DNA from: Williamsia sp. 1138
Lineage (GTDB): Bacteria > Actinomycetota > Actinomycetes > Mycobacteriales > Mycobacteriaceae
Reading direction: 5' to 3'
Assembly: GCF_002095435.2 (NCBI RefSeq)
Contig: NZ_MJEJ02000048.1
Location: 124,001 to 188,000, forward strand
DNA: 64,000 bases
Shown: positions 20,221-26,606 of the stretch, piece after piece
Numbering within the stretch: the stretch's first letter is position 1
Layout: each line of letters starts with the position of its first letter
Position numbers and translations under genes: made by a program
The notes under the pieces: model-generated
What the model was told of the DNA's origin: nothing
The model's input: only the letters and a program-made list of their open reading frames with translations
Databases searched by the model: none

Positions 20221-21627
20221 ATGGTGAACGTAGAACCGACCGCGGCGGCCTCTGGGCTGCCCTCCTGCTCCGGTAGCCATCGCCTGCCGCTGCGGCAGTT
20301 CGTGCGGTCGTTTCGCGCTTCACCCGGACTTTTCCGGCTGCTCTCGGTACGTCTCGGTAGCCAGTTCACCGATGGTCTGTTCCAGGCCGCGCTCGGGGGC
20401 GCGATCCTGTTCAACCCCGAGCGGCATGCCGATCCCATGGCCGTCGCCGGAGGCATGGCAGTACTGCTGCTCCCCTACTCGGTGATCGGTCCGTTCGCCG
20501 GCGCACTACTCGACCACTGGGACCGCCGCACCGTCCTCGTCTGGGCCAATGTCTTGCGTGCTGTACTGGTCTCTCTGGTCGCGCTGGTGATCGCGACGGG
20601 TGCGAACGACACCGGCGTCCTGATCGCGGCGCTGGCGGTCACCGGCGCCAGCAGGTTCGTGGCCTCGGGGCTGTCCGCGGGCCTGCCACATGTCATCGAA
20701 CGCGACCTGCTGGTCGGGATGAACTCCTTCTTCACCACCATCGGCGCCGGAGCACTCGCCCTCGGCGCAGGCGGCGCCCTGACGTTGCGCGAGATCTTCG
20801 GGTCGAACAATTCCGGCAGTGCGGCGACGGTCATGGGGGCAGTGGTCGTTGCGCTGGCCGCCGCCGCGATCGCGCACCGCTTCGAACCCCTGCAACTCGG
20901 TCCGGATCATCCGGACGTCGTCGGTAAGGTCACCCCGCAGCATCCGAGCGGGTCGGCTTTTCGTGCGGTCACCGTGGGCCTCGGACACGGTGCCCGGGCG
21001 GTGTGGCAGGCCCCGCCTGTCGCCGCCGCGCTCGCCGGGGTCGGGGCGCACCGGCTGGTCTTCGGTTTCAACACCCTGATGCTGCTGGTCCTGACCAAGA
21101 ACTCGACGCTCGGCGGAGGTCTGTCCGGATTCGGCCTGGTCGCTGCCATGACGGCGGTCGGGATGCTGTTCGCCGCACTGCTGACCCCGTTTCTCGTCGC
21201 CCGGTTCGGGCGTCGACGAGCGGTCGTCTCCGCTCTGGCGGTGGGCGTCGTCGCGCAGCTGACCCTGTGGAGTTTCAACGGGATCGTCATCTGTGTGGCC
21301 GCCGCAGTGCTGGGACTGATCGGCCAGGTGTGCAAGCTCTGCGGCGACGCCGCCATGCAGATGGACGTCGCGGACGCCCGGCGCGGCCAGGCGTTCTCGT
21401 TCCAGGACGCGCTGTTCAACTTTGCGTTCGTCGGAGCGATCACCGTCGGCGCCCTGACCATCGCCGACGACGGGCGCTCACCGGGCCTGGTCGTAGCAGG
21501 TGCGGCCATCTACGCGATCGCCATCGTTGTCGTAGGACTGATCCACAATCGCGAGGAAGCGACAGTCCCGGACACCGACCATCCAGGAGACCACCATGCG
21601 ATACGGAATCGTCTTTCCCAAAGGTGA
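20221..21627 (+). CDS. MFS transporter (Rv0037c-like)
   Basis: A 468-residue, 12-span major facilitator family protein. The first span region reads LLSVRLGSQFTDGLFQAALGGAILF, and the cytoplasmic loop between spans 2 and 3 carries DHWDRRTVLVWANVLRA, the MFS signature loop. I placed the start at ATG 20221, where the protein sequence becomes typical. The substrate is unknown. The end overlaps the next gene by 32 bases, implying a shared transcript with the flavin oxidoreductase. Confidence 0.85.
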   Translation: MVNVEPTAAASGLPSCSGSHRLPLRQFVRSFRASPGLFRLLSVRLGSQFTDGLFQAALGGAILFNPERHADPMAVAGGMAVLLLPYSVIGPFAGALLDHWDRRTVLVWANVLRAVLVSLVALVIATGANDTGVLIAALAVTGASRFVASGLSAGLPHVIERDLLVGMNSFFTTIGAGALALGAGGALTLREIFGSNNSGSAATVMGAVVVALAAAAIAHRFEPLQLGPDHPDVVGKVTPQHPSGSAFRAVTVGLGHGARAVWQAPPVAAALAGVGAHRLVFGFNTLMLLVLTKNSTLGGGLSGFGLVAAMTAVGMLFAALLTPFLVARFGRRRAVVSALAVGVVAQLTLWSFNGIVICVAAAVLGLIGQVCKLCGDAAMQMDVADARRGQAFSFQDALFNFAFVGAITVGALTIADDGRSPGLVVAGAAIYAIAIVVVGLIHNREEATVPDTDHPGDHHAIRNRLSQR

Positions 21628-22444
21628 CGCCGCCGACTTCGCGACGATGGCGGTTGCGGCCGAAGACGCGGGCTGGGATGCGGTGTTCGGCTGGGAGGCG
21701 CTCTGGGGCAACGACCCCTGGATCTCACTGACCGCCGCAGCGATGCGCACCGAACGCATCGGGCTCGGCACCATGTTGACCCCGGTGCCGCGGCGCAAAC
21801 CGTGGGACCTGGCGTCCACCACCGCAACCCTCGACCGGCTCAGCGGCGGACGGGTGATCCTCGGGGTCGGGATGGGTGCACTGCACCCGGGCTGGCTGGC
21901 GTTCGAACGCGACCAGGGCCGCAAGACCCGCGCAGAATTGTTCGACGAAGGTCTGGACGTGTTGTTCGGGCTCTGGGGCGGACAGCCTTTCGAGTATTCG
22001 GGCAAGCACTACCAGGTGCGCCCCACCGATTTCGAACTCCCCGACCCCATCGTCTCCACGCCGCGGATCACCACCTGGTGTGTCGGATTACAGGGCGCGC
22101 GCAGGTCGATGGCGAGGGCTGCGCGCTGCGACGGACTGCTACCGAACTTCAGGCGGCCGGATGGATCGATGCCGGACGGCCCCGTCACGGTCGGGGTCGA
22201 GCAGTGGGCAAGCGTCGCGGCCGAGATCCGGGGGCTGCGCGAGGAGCTCGGTTTCACGGGAAACTACGACATCGTCTTCGAGGGCACCGCCGATCTCTCC
22301 GATCGTGACGGCGAACGTCGCAAGGCTGCGCAGCTCGCGGATGCCGGCATCACCTGGTGGCTCGATTCCGACTGGGAGGCCCGGCCGGCCGATCCGGTCG
22401 CGTACCAACTCGAGCGCATCAAGGCCGGCCCACCGTCGTTCTGA
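21596..22444 (+). CDS. LLM class (luciferase-like) flavin-dependent oxidoreductase
   Basis: A 282-residue TIM-barrel flavin or F420-dependent enzyme. Family marks include the N-terminal strand MRYGIVFP, the ERIGLGTMLTPVPRRKPWDLASTTATLDRLSGGRVILGVGMG stretch and a bulge region. The start ATG lies inside the end of the MFS gene. Substrate and cofactor (FMN or F420) cannot be decided from sequence alone. Confidence 0.87.
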   Translation: MRYGIVFPKGDAADFATMAVAAEDAGWDAVFGWEALWGNDPWISLTAAAMRTERIGLGTMLTPVPRRKPWDLASTTATLDRLSGGRVILGVGMGALHPGWLAFERDQGRKTRAELFDEGLDVLFGLWGGQPFEYSGKHYQVRPTDFELPDPIVSTPRITTWCVGLQGARRSMARAARCDGLLPNFRRPDGSMPDGPVTVGVEQWASVAAEIRGLREELGFTGNYDIVFEGTADLSDRDGERRKAAQLADAGITWWLDSDWEARPADPVAYQLERIKAGPPSF

Positions 22445-22451
22445 TCGCACG

Positions 22452-23141
22452 TCAGCGAGTGAAAGGGTCCCGGTAGAGGTAGTGACTCGTCGGGACGGTG
22501 TCGATGTTCTGATCCGCCCCGAATGCGCCGGTGCTCGCCAGCATCCGGGTCATCCGGTCGGTCAGCTCCTCGTCGTCCGCGGCACCGAAGAAAGCATGGA
22601 CGTCGTGCACCGCCTCGATGGGGAAGAACTCCTCGACGATCGCGTCCACTGACGGCGCATCCGGGGTCAGCGACCGCACGACCGCGTTCTGGACGTAGCC
22701 GAACGTCGCCTGGGTCTCGATCGCGATCGGAGTGTGGTCGTGGTGCCAGCGCCTGCGCCATGACGCCTCGTCGAGGTCGGCCGGTCGGCGGATGAAGGCC
22801 AGATTCGACAACCCGGGGGTGCGCTCCCCCGGGTCGACACGGGGCACGGGCAGCGGTACCGATTCCGTCACCAGATACGCCGAAACATGACCAAATGACC
22901 CGCCCAGAAGGTCGATGAGTTCCGCGATCGGCTGCCCGTAGTGTTGCTCCGTCCAGACGCTGACCACCGCGACAATGGGCGGATCGAGGGTTGTCAGCGT
23001 CATTTTAGAACCGGATACCAGATTATCTCGGACGTTGATCGCGACGCCCTCAAAGTGCATCTCGGACCCTTGTTTACGCAGGTCAGAGCACCATTCTGCA
23101 GTCGGTACCGAACCCCTGACAGCGAGCATGACCTTCTCCAC
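22452..23141 (-). CDS. EthD domain-containing protein
   Basis: A 229-residue protein made of two dimeric ferredoxin-like alpha/beta barrel repeats, as in the EthD group. The second half has the typical DEASWRRRWHHDHTPIAIETQATFGYVQN segment with a His pair. The start used is GTG 23141 (MEKVMLAV, the common family opening); an internal ATG at 23129 with GGAGAAGG before it is an alternative. EthD proteins occur beside oxygenases and ether-degradation genes, but none is next to this one. Function is not known. Confidence 0.8.
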   Translation of the reverse strand: MEKVMLAVRGSVPTAEWCSDLRKQGSEMHFEGVAINVRDNLVSGSKMTLTTLDPPIVAVVSVWTEQHYGQPIAELIDLLGGSFGHVSAYLVTESVPLPVPRVDPGERTPGLSNLAFIRRPADLDEASWRRRWHHDHTPIAIETQATFGYVQNAVVRSLTPDAPSVDAIVEEFFPIEAVHDVHAFFGAADDEELTDRMTRMLASTGAFGADQNIDTVPTSHYLYRDPFTR

Positions 23142-23194
23142 GTGAGTGACCTTAGCCGCTCACATAGCGACAAAAGGGCTATTCACCTGGCACT
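23142..23194. promoter_or_regulatory. Short divergent promoter region before the HTH operon
   Basis: Only 53 bases separate the EthD and HTH starts. It contains GTGAGTG (23142-23148) and CGCTCAC (23157-23163), an imperfect inverted repeat (6 of 7 pairs) that could be an operator. A TATTCA stretch at 23180-23185 sits about 10 bases before the HTH ATG, and there is no ribosome site, so the HTH message may be leaderless, which is common in actinobacteria. Confidence 0.4.
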
Positions 23195-23617
23195 ATGGTC
23201 CGCATGCGCAATCGTGATGAGGTGTCTGAGTTCGCAATCGAGCTCAATAGGCTCTGTGCGTCCCGCTGGCCAGGTGGCTCTCGGACGGCAAACGCAGAGA
23301 TCGCCGACTGGGTCACGGCCGAAACCGGCCGGACCATCGATCGGCAGTTCGTGTGGCGGATCCGCAAGGGGCGCGTGATGAAGGTGGACGGCGCCGTGCG
23401 GGACGCCATCTGCTCGTTCTTCGGTGTCTCCAAAGACCATTTCTCCTCGAGTCCCCGGACCCTTGGTGAAGAGGTTCAGGCAGCGATCGAAGAGACCGGA
23501 TTGCAGGTCGCGGGTCTCCGTGCCGATCAACTGTCCTCGACCGGGCGGGCCGAACTGGTCACCTTGCTCCGCGAGGTGAGCCGGGTACTCGAGGCCGAGA
23601 AGAGCGTCGGACAATGA
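23195..23617 (+). CDS. EspR-like helix-turn-helix regulator
   Basis: A 140-residue DNA-binding protein. The N-terminal part (about 10-85) reads like an EspR-type HTH: FAIELNRLCASRWPGG, then TNAEIADWVTAETG-like helices, then a recognition region QFVWRIRKGRVMKVDGAVRDAICSFFGVSKDHF. The C-terminal region (about 95-135) is a likely dimerisation helix pair. It has no clear ribosome site. Its stop overlaps the next start (ATGATG), so it is translationally coupled to the ImmA/IrrE gene. EspR in M. tuberculosis controls ESX secretion and nucleoid structure; the role here is unknown. Confidence 0.75.
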   Translation: MVRMRNRDEVSEFAIELNRLCASRWPGGSRTANAEIADWVTAETGRTIDRQFVWRIRKGRVMKVDGAVRDAICSFFGVSKDHFSSSPRTLGEEVQAAIEETGLQVAGLRADQLSSTGRAELVTLLREVSRVLEAEKSVGQ

Positions 23618-24030
23618 TGACCCGCCAGAAGATGTTTCGGCTCGCCGCTGCCATCTCCCCCGAGGGTGACTGGTCGTGGGAGGCGTTCGAGATCCGGCTT
23701 GCCAAGGAACTCGGTTGCCCTGTCCGTTGCATCACTTCTGACAGTCTCAACTCGGGCGAGGTGACCGGCGCGGCATTGCGGACCAGTCGCGGTACCGCCA
23801 TCATCGTCATCCCGGCGAACGTGTCCAAGGCCCACAGCATTCACATCGCGGCGCACGAGGCCTGGCATCTGCTCGCCGGTCACGAGGGTTGCGATCAGAA
23901 CTCGCGGCGAGAAGCCCAGTCGGAGGCCTTCGCCACGACGGTCGGCACCCTCGCCGAAGGCCGTGGTAGCCAGCCTCGTAACAACCGTGCCTTGACTGCT
24001 GCGTTCGGAGCTGTTGGCATCGTGGCATGA
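23614..24030 (+). CDS. ImmA/IrrE family metallo-endopeptidase
   Basis: A 138-residue compact zinc peptidase. The zinc site is HEAWH at 81-85 (HIAAHEAWHLLAGHEG), with the third ligand likely among REAQSEAFATT (about 99-109). IrrE/ImmA proteins cut partner HTH repressors (ImmA cuts ImmR; IrrE cuts DdrO). Here the partner is the natural candidate encoded 4 bases upstream. The start and stop both overlap neighbours by 4 bases, so the three genes form one translation unit. Confidence 0.85.
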   Translation: MMTRQKMFRLAAAISPEGDWSWEAFEIRLAKELGCPVRCITSDSLNSGEVTGAALRTSRGTAIIVIPANVSKAHSIHIAAHEAWHLLAGHEGCDQNSRREAQSEAFATTVGTLAEGRGSQPRNNRALTAAFGAVGIVA

Positions 24031-24839
24031 GAGATGCGCTCGGCGCGCTTGCCTGGACCGGCGTGGTCCTGGCGGCGCTGGTGGCGCTGCGCGGCGGGTG
24101 GTACCGCCACGCGACCACCATTTCATTCGGCGTGTGCATGGCGTTCTACTCCCTCACCGGCGAGAACTACATCAGCCTCATCCCACTCGGCGGTGTGCGC
24201 GAACCTCTGAGCACCTCGGAGCGCATTTGGGGCGCAACATCGGCCGTCATCGCCGGGTGCGCCCTGATGGGCGCTCTGATGGCCATCCGTCGCAAGAGCC
24301 GTGATCCCGACGGCGACGAGTGGACCGACCCCGATCTGCACCAGCGCTTGATGATGCTCGTCCTCGGGGCCGCCGGCTCGGTGGCAATCATCAATCTCAC
24401 GTTGGTGCACTCGAACTTTCCTCCCAGCGCTGATTTCCTCGCGGACTACGGGAACGTCTTCAACGTGGTGCTCTACGAGGCCGTCTTCTCGATCTGGATC
24501 GGGCTACCCGCAGGCTTCCTCGCCTGGACCGTCGTGCGATCCGAACTGGGCAAGTTGCGCTTCGTCGTCGGGGTGGGTGGCATCTTCGCCGTCGCCTGGT
24601 CCGTATGGAAGATCATCGGGACGGGCCTCATCTGGGCCGCAGACATCCACGTTGCCGAGAACAGTCCGGTCAGCGTGACCCTGGGTCTGCTCGCCCTCAG
24701 CTTCTGCATGGTCGGGACGCTGCTGCTGGGCCTCGAGGCGGCGTTTCGGGTATGGCGAGCCGGACGCACCTATCGCACCGCACGTGCGCTGGAGGATCGG
24801 CGGCTGCGGCACCGGAGCACCGGCGAAGAGGCGGCCTGA
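24027..24839 (+). CDS. Seven-span membrane protein, MAB_1171c-like
   Basis: A 270-residue protein with about seven hydrophobic spans (roughly 7-25, 31-48, 66-85, 102-122, 150-172, 181-202, 214-236) and a short basic C-terminal tail that resembles the start of the cytoplasmic region of the MAB_1171c (putative transporter) family. It is shorter than many members, whose cytoplasmic region is longer. It starts on the ATGA overlap with the peptidase gene. Nothing shows a transported substrate; a receptor-like role is as likely as transport. Confidence 0.65.
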   Translation: MRDALGALAWTGVVLAALVALRGGWYRHATTISFGVCMAFYSLTGENYISLIPLGGVREPLSTSERIWGATSAVIAGCALMGALMAIRRKSRDPDGDEWTDPDLHQRLMMLVLGAAGSVAIINLTLVHSNFPPSADFLADYGNVFNVVLYEAVFSIWIGLPAGFLAWTVVRSELGKLRFVVGVGGIFAVAWSVWKIIGTGLIWAADIHVAENSPVSVTLGLLALSFCMVGTLLLGLEAAFRVWRAGRTYRTARALEDRRLRHRSTGEEAA

Positions 24840-24840
24840 C

Positions 24841-25404
24841 TCACAGCCCGAACCCCGGCTGTCCCACCGACAGGGCGGCATCGGCAGTTCCGTCGAGATC
24901 GCTGTCGACGATGACCTGGTCGAGTGTCGAGTCCAGGTCGGTGTCGAGGTACAACCGCCCGCCGGAGCGCATCACCACGATCTCGGCGAGACCATCGGAA
25001 TCCCGGTCACACACCCTGTCGTCGGTGCCGCCGTCACCGGCGACGTCCACACTCGCGCAGGATCCGTGGAGATCGGTGGTGGCCGGACTCGTGTGCTGCT
25101 CCCCCATCGGATCGCTCCAACGCAGATCGGCGTCTCCCTGCTCGAGCTCTCGACCCCACACCCCCGAACCGTCGTCGGTGTACCAGGCGTCGGGCCGACC
25201 ATCGTCGTCCAGATCCAGCACACTGCAGTCGGCACGGCCGTCTGCGTTGCGGTCCCACATCGCATCGTCGAGGCGGCCGTCGCCGTCGAAGTCGATCCGG
25301 ACCGCGTCGAGACCACCCGATCCAAGGGTCAGATCCGGCGGAGAGGTCCACGACTGGGTCGTACCGTCTCCCGATCCGAAGACGTACTCGATTGTCGGCT
25401 CCAT
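24841..25404 (-). CDS. Asp-rich DxDxDG repeat protein
   Basis: A 187-residue protein with at least six copies of an Asp-rich turn (DFDGDGRLDD, DRNADGRAD, DLDDDGRPD, DRDSDGLAE, DTDLDSTLD, DSDLDGTAD), like Ca-binding loops of EF-hand or thrombospondin-type-3 repeats. Similar proteins are sometimes labelled pullulanase in databases, but no glycosidase motif is visible. No signal peptide is present. The start is uncertain: ATG 25404 is used, while GTG 25479 would add a hexapeptide repeat (TPDGTE/TPDGAV) encoded by a 13-base direct repeat at 25421-25451. It is divergent from the EgtE-like gene. Confidence 0.6.
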   Translation of the reverse strand: MEPTIEYVFGSGDGTTQSWTSPPDLTLGSGGLDAVRIDFDGDGRLDDAMWDRNADGRADCSVLDLDDDGRPDAWYTDDGSGVWGRELEQGDADLRWSDPMGEQHTSPATTDLHGSCASVDVAGDGGTDDRVCDRDSDGLAEIVVMRSGGRLYLDTDLDSTLDQVIVDSDLDGTADAALSVGQPGFGL

Positions 25405-25514
25405 GACGGATATGACGGCGCCATCGGGTGTCTCGGTTCCATCGGGTGTCTTCGCGGTAGCGTGAGAACCGACAAGCACCCGAGCGGGGGCTCTGCGCCC
25501 AGGAGGTTCTACGG

Positions 25515-26606
25515 ATGTACGTGAGCGAGCTCGGTGACCTCTGGCATCGCGCCCGTACCGAGCCGGTGAGCATCCACCTGGACTCGGCATCGGCATCACG
25601 TTCGTCGAAGCGGGTGATCGAGACCATCACCTCGCACCTGTGGCGTGAGGCGGAGCGAGGTGCGTACGTCGCGGAGGAACAGATCGCCGAATCACTCGAC
25701 AGGTGCCGCCGTGACATCGCCGAGCTGGTCGGACACCAGGCCAGCGAGCTCGCATTCCGAGAATCCGCCAAGGCGGCGCTGCGAGCCCTTCTCACCCATT
25801 GGAACCTCCCCATCTCCGCGTCGGTGTGGGTGGCGACGAACGAGTTCGGGCCCAACCTCGACGAGTTCGAGCGTCGCGGTTACGCGGTGCACACGATCCC
25901 GTCGGCGGATGTCTACGGGCACGTCGACACCGACGCCCTCGAGAACATGCTCCAGTTCGAGCAGCCCGACTTCATCCACATCTGCCACATCGGATCACAC
26001 AGCGGTGTGGTGCAACCGGTCTCGAAGATCGTCGACCTCGCGCGCGCCGCGGGCGTACCCGTGGTCGTCGACGTCGCGCAGGCACTGGGCCAGCGGGACT
26101 GCGCATCGGGCGCCGACGTGGTCTACGGGACGAGCCGTAAGTGGCTGGCGGGACCCCGCGGCGTCGGCTTCCTCGCCGTGCGGGCCGATTCGGTCAGGCC
26201 CGTCGAGGTCGAGAGCTCCGAGGCCTTCATCGCGGGCCGGCTCGGGCTCGGCGTAGCGATCCAGGAATTGCAGAGCTTCGGGCCGGCGCGGGTCAACCGC
26301 GAGCTCGCCACGATCGGGCAGTTCACCAGGGAACGGCTGACCGGCATCGGGAGCTGGGAGGTGCTCGAGCCCATCGACGAACCTTCGGCGATCGTCACGC
26401 TGGCACCCCCGCCGGGATGGGAGGCGGGTGACGTGCTGGCGGCGCGCAACAAGCTGCGCTCGATCGGCATCCTCGTCACCTGCGCCGATCCCTGGCGGGC
26501 GCCCCTGAGTTCGGAACAGACGGTGCTCAGGATCTCCCCGCACCTCGACGTACAGCGGGCGCACCTCGATCAGCTGGCGAACGAGTTACGCGGGATGGGT
26601 TACTGA
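25515..26606 (+). CDS. EgtE-like PLP-dependent aminotransferase class V-fold enzyme
   Basis: A 363-residue fold-type I PLP enzyme. The cofactor Lys lies in YGTSRKWLAGPRGVGF, the pattern of EgtE (ergothioneine C-S lyase) and related class V proteins, and the N terminus HLDSASASRSSKRV resembles HLDxAxCSRxS of EgtE. The start ATG is preceded by AGGAGGTT. No egtABCD genes are near, so either it acts with distant genes or it is a paralogue with another substrate. It meets the acyl-CoA dehydrogenase tail to tail with a 7-base overlap. Confidence 0.75.
   Translation: MYVSELGDLWHRARTEPVSIHLDSASASRSSKRVIETITSHLWREAERGAYVAEEQIAESLDRCRRDIAELVGHQASELAFRESAKAALRALLTHWNLPISASVWVATNEFGPNLDEFERRGYAVHTIPSADVYGHVDTDALENMLQFEQPDFIHICHIGSHSGVVQPVSKIVDLARAAGVPVVVDVAQALGQRDCASGADVVYGTSRKWLAGPRGVGFLAVRADSVRPVEVESSEAFIAGRLGLGVAIQELQSFGPARVNRELATIGQFTRERLTGIGSWEVLEPIDEPSAIVTLAPPPGWEAGDVLAARNKLRSIGILVTCADPWRAPLSSEQTVLRISPHLDVQRAHLDQLANELRGMGY

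Follow-up and report, generated by a model that had tools for sequence, protein, structure and literature searches.

Overlapping genes for an EspR-like regulator, a putative M78 protease and a membrane protein in Williamsia resemble a recurrent actinobacterial unit

Inactivation of an XRE-type repressor by an M78-type protein is established for two systems, ImmA with ImmR (PMC2701414) and IrrE with DdrO (PMC5552922). So far this form of repressor control has been linked to DNA damage and to mobile elements. The survey of XRE pairs by Makarova et al. in 2009 set aside those found with membrane proteins (PMC2701414). This report describes such a combination: a trio of overlapping genes in a 64,000-nucleotide stretch of DNA from Williamsia sp. 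1138 (contig NZ_MJEJ02000048.1, positions 124,001 to 188,000 of the forward strand), which is referred to throughout as the window. Gene 1 encodes an EspR-like helix-turn-helix (HTH) protein, gene 2 a putative zinc protease of the M78 (ImmA/IrrE) type, and gene 3 a membrane protein that probably crosses the membrane seven times. The original prediction knew of no description of this arrangement, and none of the trio or of its parts was found in the open-access literature (CC0, CC BY and CC BY-SA papers).

Judged by sequence, the trio has a recurrent counterpart in the actinobacteria. This canonical unit is composed of an EspR-like HTH protein, an M78 protein, and a seven-transmembrane (7TM) protein of the MAB_1171c family (NF042915) that carries a cytosolic DUF6545 domain. 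It was recovered with each of the three genes as query, so the three families do co-occur elsewhere, contrary to the outcome that would have refuted the original prediction. In a protease-led survey, five canonical proteases were searched against genome contigs; 209 relatives were returned and the best 80 were kept. Most belong to Gordonia, Lentzea, Tsukamurella, and Williamsia, and the loci are thus not independent of each other. The transmembrane (TM) gene lies directly 3' of the protease gene in 79 of the 80 loci (the exception is L115), an HTH gene is found within 500 nucleotides upstream of the protease in 70, and all three genes stand together in 69. The commonest spacing between protease and TM gene is a 4-nucleotide overlap (31/79). 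When the TM protein leads the search, the best-scoring places of longer lists from Williamsia and a sample of its family include the protease in 32 of 32 cases and the HTH in 29 of 32. The corresponding figures for a phylum sample are 16/21 and 6/21; they cover the stronger places of 29 that were listed, eight weaker ones being omitted, and some rows represent neighbours on one contig. With the window HTH as query, and among the 19 best loci beyond Williamsia, a protease gene is present in 18 and a TM gene within the 1500-nucleotide flank in 14; the only one that lacks a protease, L207, resembles stand-alone EspR.

The TM family has matches in 88 of the 201 genomes sampled from the GTDB family, 54 of them above the curated cut-off; in the phylum sample, 19 of 198 genomes have a match and 7 of these exceed it. 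In all 11 annotated plasmid regions that were viewed, the protease and TM genes are side by side by position, and the gene table, which is incomplete, lists a same-strand HTH directly upstream in five of them (L051, L053, L184, L185, and L190). One plasmid locus, in Streptomyces clavuligerus (L187, 3478-5783), has a gene annotated as a ribosomally synthesized and post-translationally modified peptide with an LxmA leader domain about 400 nucleotides before its M78 (“ParH-like”) and MAB_1171c genes. A trio of HTH, M78, and 469-residue TM genes is also found in a distant lineage, a 1.6-Mb genome from another family of the phylum (L029, 536-2871, in G386).

The genome that contains the window (G000) has a second trio, which is canonical (contig C38; L022, 400-2607, also L142) and whose full-length TM protein scores 363.8 bits against NF042915. 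A canonical copy is present in each of the nine Williamsia genomes compared (347-380 bits), and in four of these (G002, G004, G006, and G008) the canonical and window-type copies are about 145-152 kb apart on the same contig. Beside this full-length version, the window trio looks like a stripped-down relative of the unit.

The relationship is clearest for the first two genes. Residues 12-130 of gene 1, nearly its whole length, align with EspR in the PDB (3r1f/3qf3) at an E-value of 5.4e-4; the canonical HTH relative from the same genome reaches 1.3e-10. Against a profile of canonical HTHs built without the window, gene 1 scores 2.2e-11 and is the sole one of the 405 open reading frames (ORFs) of the window over the inclusion threshold. 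These two matches bear out the description of the HTH as EspR-like. Gene 2 is likewise the sole ORF over the inclusion threshold against a canonical protease profile built without the window (E 3.5e-10), and among the ORFs compared, the nearest relatives of both genes are in trio loci of Nocardia (L119 and L116).

Gene 2 has the zinc-site residues of an M78 protease, a group in which the third zinc ligand is a glutamate downstream of the HExxH motif. His81, Glu82, His85, Glu100, and Glu104 are invariant in 38 aligned sequences, so that both the motif and a downstream glutamate are retained. The Pfam family Peptidase_M78 (PF06114) matches gene 2 at 20.7 bits, just under its curated cut-off of 22, and matches 37 of the 38 aligned relatives at E-values up to 1 (best 4.4e-5). 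Neither gene 2 nor the protease profile, when searched against PDB sequences, gave a credible relative or a match to an M78 protease. The protease alignment was also compared as a profile with an M78 protein of this genome that is fused to an HTH, and no similarity emerged. The ImmA/IrrE-type identity first proposed for gene 2 is supported by its retained HEAWH motif and downstream glutamate. By sequence, the protein is a clear homologue of the canonical protease, M78-like and with its zinc residues kept; its protease activity is putative.

For one canonical TM protein, a seven-helix bundle is predicted with confidence (pLDDT 92.6). The 50 structural matches listed from the chains that Foldseek ranked highest for this model are G-protein-coupled receptors (GPCRs) or a GPCR-like design, a likeness that is to be taken as no more than resemblance. 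The 7TM gene of some lineages is overlapped by a fourth and exchangeable gene for an oxidoreductase or hydrolase; the types found are cytochrome P450, flavin adenine dinucleotide monooxygenase, aldo/keto reductase, and amidohydrolase. In Mycobacterium attenuatum (L125, 992-4697), the HTH and protease genes are separated by one for a cytochrome P450, and an enzyme gene can therefore sit inside the unit.

An unlikely alternative is that the membrane protein is a transporter and that the HTH and protease merely regulate its expression. NCBI names the NF042915 family a putative transporter, and knockout of MAB_1171c in M. abscessus lowers biofilm by about 50%, an effect that its authors interpret as transport of biofilm constituents (PMC8707978). 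The phenotype is equally compatible with a sensor, however, and a search of PDB sequences with the TM profile gave no credible relative. No transporter family occurs among the 50 structural matches listed, though one may lie beyond them. Because the protease gene directly precedes the TM gene in 79/80 loci, a partnership between their products fits better than a regulated cargo.

Gene 3 of the window is the least secure member of the trio. The original prediction described it as a short, seven-span, MAB_1171c-like protein, of which the place and the probable topology stand, while the likeness to the family is weaker than was stated. Hydropathy indicates six clear hydrophobic segments and a weak seventh (about residues 29-50) that was placed by judgement, and the charge pattern is compatible with an N-out/C-in orientation. 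The match to NF042915 is 19.7 bits against a cut-off of 100 and covers positions 93-251 of the 362 in the profile. A Pfam scan gave no match to DUF6545 in gene 3 at E-values up to 10; the domain is present in a canonical protein (L054) at 64.6 bits. Profiles of the canonical TM proteins either do not list gene 3 or place it at an E-value of 0.41, behind an unrelated ORF at 0.22. Gene 3 is consequently not filed as a member of the MAB_1171c family; it occupies the 7TM place and probably shares its topology.

The same low scores speak for gene 3 being an unrelated short membrane protein in third place, in which case the window would hold an HTH-protease pair with a different partner. The hhalign probability of 2.8 for gene 3 points the same way. 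Yet that alignment is in register (134-205 on 134-211), NF042915 matches all nine Williamsia orthologues of gene 3 at E-values up to 1 (best 3.5e-4), gene order and overlap are as in the canonical unit, and the topology is similar. With these points considered, an unrelated gene 3 is unlikely, and its homology to the canonical TM proteins is tentative.

Within Williamsia, the trio is a stable part of the chromosome region. All nine genomes share one arrangement (YqgE, MFS, luciferase-like gene, trio, FG-GAP gene, and class V aminotransferase), from which the locus is taken to be inherited vertically and not obviously mobile. Gene 2 is present in all nine at 82-100% identity and is always 138 residues long, whereas gene 3 varies from 267 to 270 residues. 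Both of the predicted four-base overlaps exist, each as ATGA, and are likewise retained in 9/9 genomes. Ratios of nonsynonymous to synonymous substitution (dN/dS) were estimated for G000 against G002, G004, and G001; they are rough, with dS at 0.7-1.5 for the two more distant genomes. In that order they are 0, 0.039, and 0.016 for gene 1; 0.069, 0.085, and 0.10 for gene 2; and 0.038, 0.12, and 0.23 for gene 3. Because the ratios are low for all three genes, the trio is more than a chance arrangement, and its genes are under purifying selection across Williamsia.

This stability also bears on whether the trio is a module of the toxin-antitoxin kind, with the HTH as antitoxin and the protease or membrane protein as toxin. 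Some records do annotate the protease as “toxin”, and Makarova et al. predicted that Xre-COG2856 pairs are modules of this type, possibly with a further component (PMC2701414). Such a module is nonetheless quite improbable here: the core genes occupy a fixed syntenic place in 9/9 genomes, the Pfam and NCBIfam scans detected no toxin family, and at E-values up to 1 none of the three proteins matched a PADLOC family. A phage, mobile-element, or defence switch like ImmA-ImmR, a purpose that had been entertained at the outset and that is suggested by the abundance of M78-HTH pairs in phages and prophages and by the role of ImmA/ImmR in ICEBs1 (PMC2701414), is very improbable in view of the same PADLOC result and conserved synteny, a search of 50,697 phage records with one canonical TM protein that found nothing, and a viral contig scan that yielded a single protease relative.

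The region upstream of gene 1 contains a candidate promoter/operator block, GCGACAAA-N10-ACCTGGCAYTAT. With up to three mismatches allowed, it has exactly one site in each of the nine Williamsia genomes, located upstream of the trio in every case; the same pattern reversed as a control has 0 sites. The block is retained even in G001, whose remaining upstream DNA aligns poorly. Since a -10-like CACTAT or CATTAT ends six to seven bases 5' of the ATG at 23204, and this ATG and the protein that follows it are kept in 9/9 genomes, the gene 1 transcript is probably leaderless and begins near that position. The start first proposed, at 23195, is abandoned, as its ATG is not conserved among the nine genomes and overlaps the -10-like CACTAT. 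The sequence TTCACCTGG before the window trio (about 23182-23190) agrees in eight of nine bases with TTCAACTGG before the trios of Lentzea; it is incompletely kept in the other Williamsia genomes and is a weak lead to an operator core common to both genera.

Recognition-helix classes differ between loci, and so do the conserved upstream sequences, the window trio having a block of its own. EspR binds TTTGC[TC][GA] (PMC3315491). The recognition helix SYLSQLRSGKAKSPSF, which is close to PYLSQLRSGNRTNPS of EspR, is common to 44 of 78 aligned HTHs besides that of the window, and HTH copies of Lentzea, Crossiella, Amycolatopsis, and some Nocardia have helices of the YIWQLRK type. For 70 of the 80 loci, the 300 nucleotides upstream of the HTH domain were examined for GTTTGC or its complement, which is the core of the EspR site. 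Among the 41 loci L054-L095 it is present in 24, where shuffling gives 5.0; the 29 others have it once, where shuffling gives 3.2. The enrichment is suggestive only, because the shuffles were of single bases and the genomes are related. The remaining 17 of the 41, including most of the Tsukamurella loci, lack the core in these 300 nucleotides. In the other helix class, TCAAC is kept by eye in 19 of 20 loci. These patterns suggest autoregulation of the HTH through class-specific sites.

The reading preferred here, in which belief and doubt are about evenly balanced, is that the trio is a self-contained signalling cassette in which a membrane receptor controls cleavage of a regulator by a protease. 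The product of gene 1 would bind the block in its promoter and probably other targets as well. The signal for gene 3 is probably a small or lipophilic molecule, on receipt of which the membrane protein would release or activate the protease at the membrane; the protease, whose substrate would be the gene 1 protein, would then cut it and so change the expression of its targets. A small-molecule membrane receptor is favoured because of the near-constant 7TM partner, the receptor-like bundle, and the metabolic fourth genes. In the canonical unit, the signal would be relayed by the seventh helix, which is long, and by DUF6545 in the cytosol. DUF6545 is missing from gene 3 of the window, and coupling there must therefore differ or be lost; in the Williamsia cassette, control could pass through the bundle itself or through a short basic tail. 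We infer cleavage, sensing, ligand, autoregulation, and the homology of gene 3 from these comparisons.

A more ambitious and rather doubtful extension is that actinobacteria possess a system in which an EspR-type protein is destroyed by an M78 protease under the control of a GPCR-like seven-helix receptor, while an exchangeable enzyme makes or removes the ligand. Besides its canonical copy, Williamsia would then have a second one, stripped of the domain and with an operator of its own, as a natural minimal version of the unit. If the cassette operates as proposed, an outside signal may reach genes through the cutting of a regulator, and the near-constant membrane partner offers a testable route from the cell exterior to repressor cleavage. 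It would also give a function to genes that are now named “toxin”, “hypothetical”, or “putative transporter”. The combination in one operon of a bacterial seven-helix receptor type with enzymes of small molecules would be of interest for actinobacterial chemistry.

Positions of the trio and its associated sequence features, numbered from the first base of the window
Feature	Position	Strand	Remarks
Conserved promoter/operator block, GCGACAAA-N10-ACCTGGCAYTAT	23167..23196	+	spacing identical in 9/9 Williamsia genomes
Gene 1, EspR-like HTH protein, 137 residues	23204..23617	+	probable leaderless start; original prediction gave 23195
ATGA overlap of genes 1 and 2	23614..23617	+	kept in Williamsia genomes
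Gene 2, M78 (ImmA/IrrE) type putative zinc protease, 138 residues	23614..24030	+	
HEAWH zinc motif, gene 2 residues 81-85	23854..23868	+	codons of Glu100 and Glu104 within 23911-23925
ATGA overlap of genes 2 and 3	24027..24030	+	kept in Williamsia genomes
Gene 3, membrane protein, 270 residues, probably 7TM with N-out/C-in, no DUF6545 match	24027..24839	+	

Genes for a luciferase-like monooxygenase and an EthD-domain protein lie upstream of the trio (21596-23141). The EthD gene (22452-23141) was considered as a further component and rejected, because no copy was detected close to the trio of G001. The downstream genes were also rejected: they are on the opposite strand, and in G004 another opposite-strand gene intervenes, an AMP-binding type enzyme as read from the letters, with the same spacing in G003, G006, and G008. 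The gene that adjoins the trio in the window (24841-25599, minus strand) encodes a protein with FG-GAP-like repeats that is fast evolving, its identity to the window's version being 49-90% across Williamsia species.

Among described proteins and systems, the trio resembles EspR through the alignment of gene 1 over nearly the whole length of the protein. Gene 1 differs from EspR proper in its recognition helix, QFVWRIRKGRVMKVDG, and in its site, as the promoter block has no exact TTTGC[TC][GA] and the minus-strand TTTGTCG is one base off; the EspR-like locus L207, unlike the trio, has no protease gene in its flank. With the canonical unit, including the copy in its own genome, the window trio shares gene order, overlaps, and homologous genes 1 and 2. 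Its gene 3 is at least 90 residues shorter than the TM proteins of the 79 loci, lacks DUF6545, and is weakly similar to them, and in the window all three genes overlap. The Xre-COG2856 modules of Makarova et al. (2009) are alike in that a three-component system was proposed around such pairs; they differ in that the further component was RelE/PIN toxins or other stress genes (PMC2701414). ImmR/ImmA of ICEBs1 and DdrO/IrrE have in common with the trio that the HTH gene neighbours one for an M78-type protein, which has HExxH and a downstream glutamate, and that the HTH is probably autoregulatory; the trio, in which cleavage is presumed, is set apart from both by an EspR-like HTH and, in the loci examined, by a membrane protein as near-constant partner.
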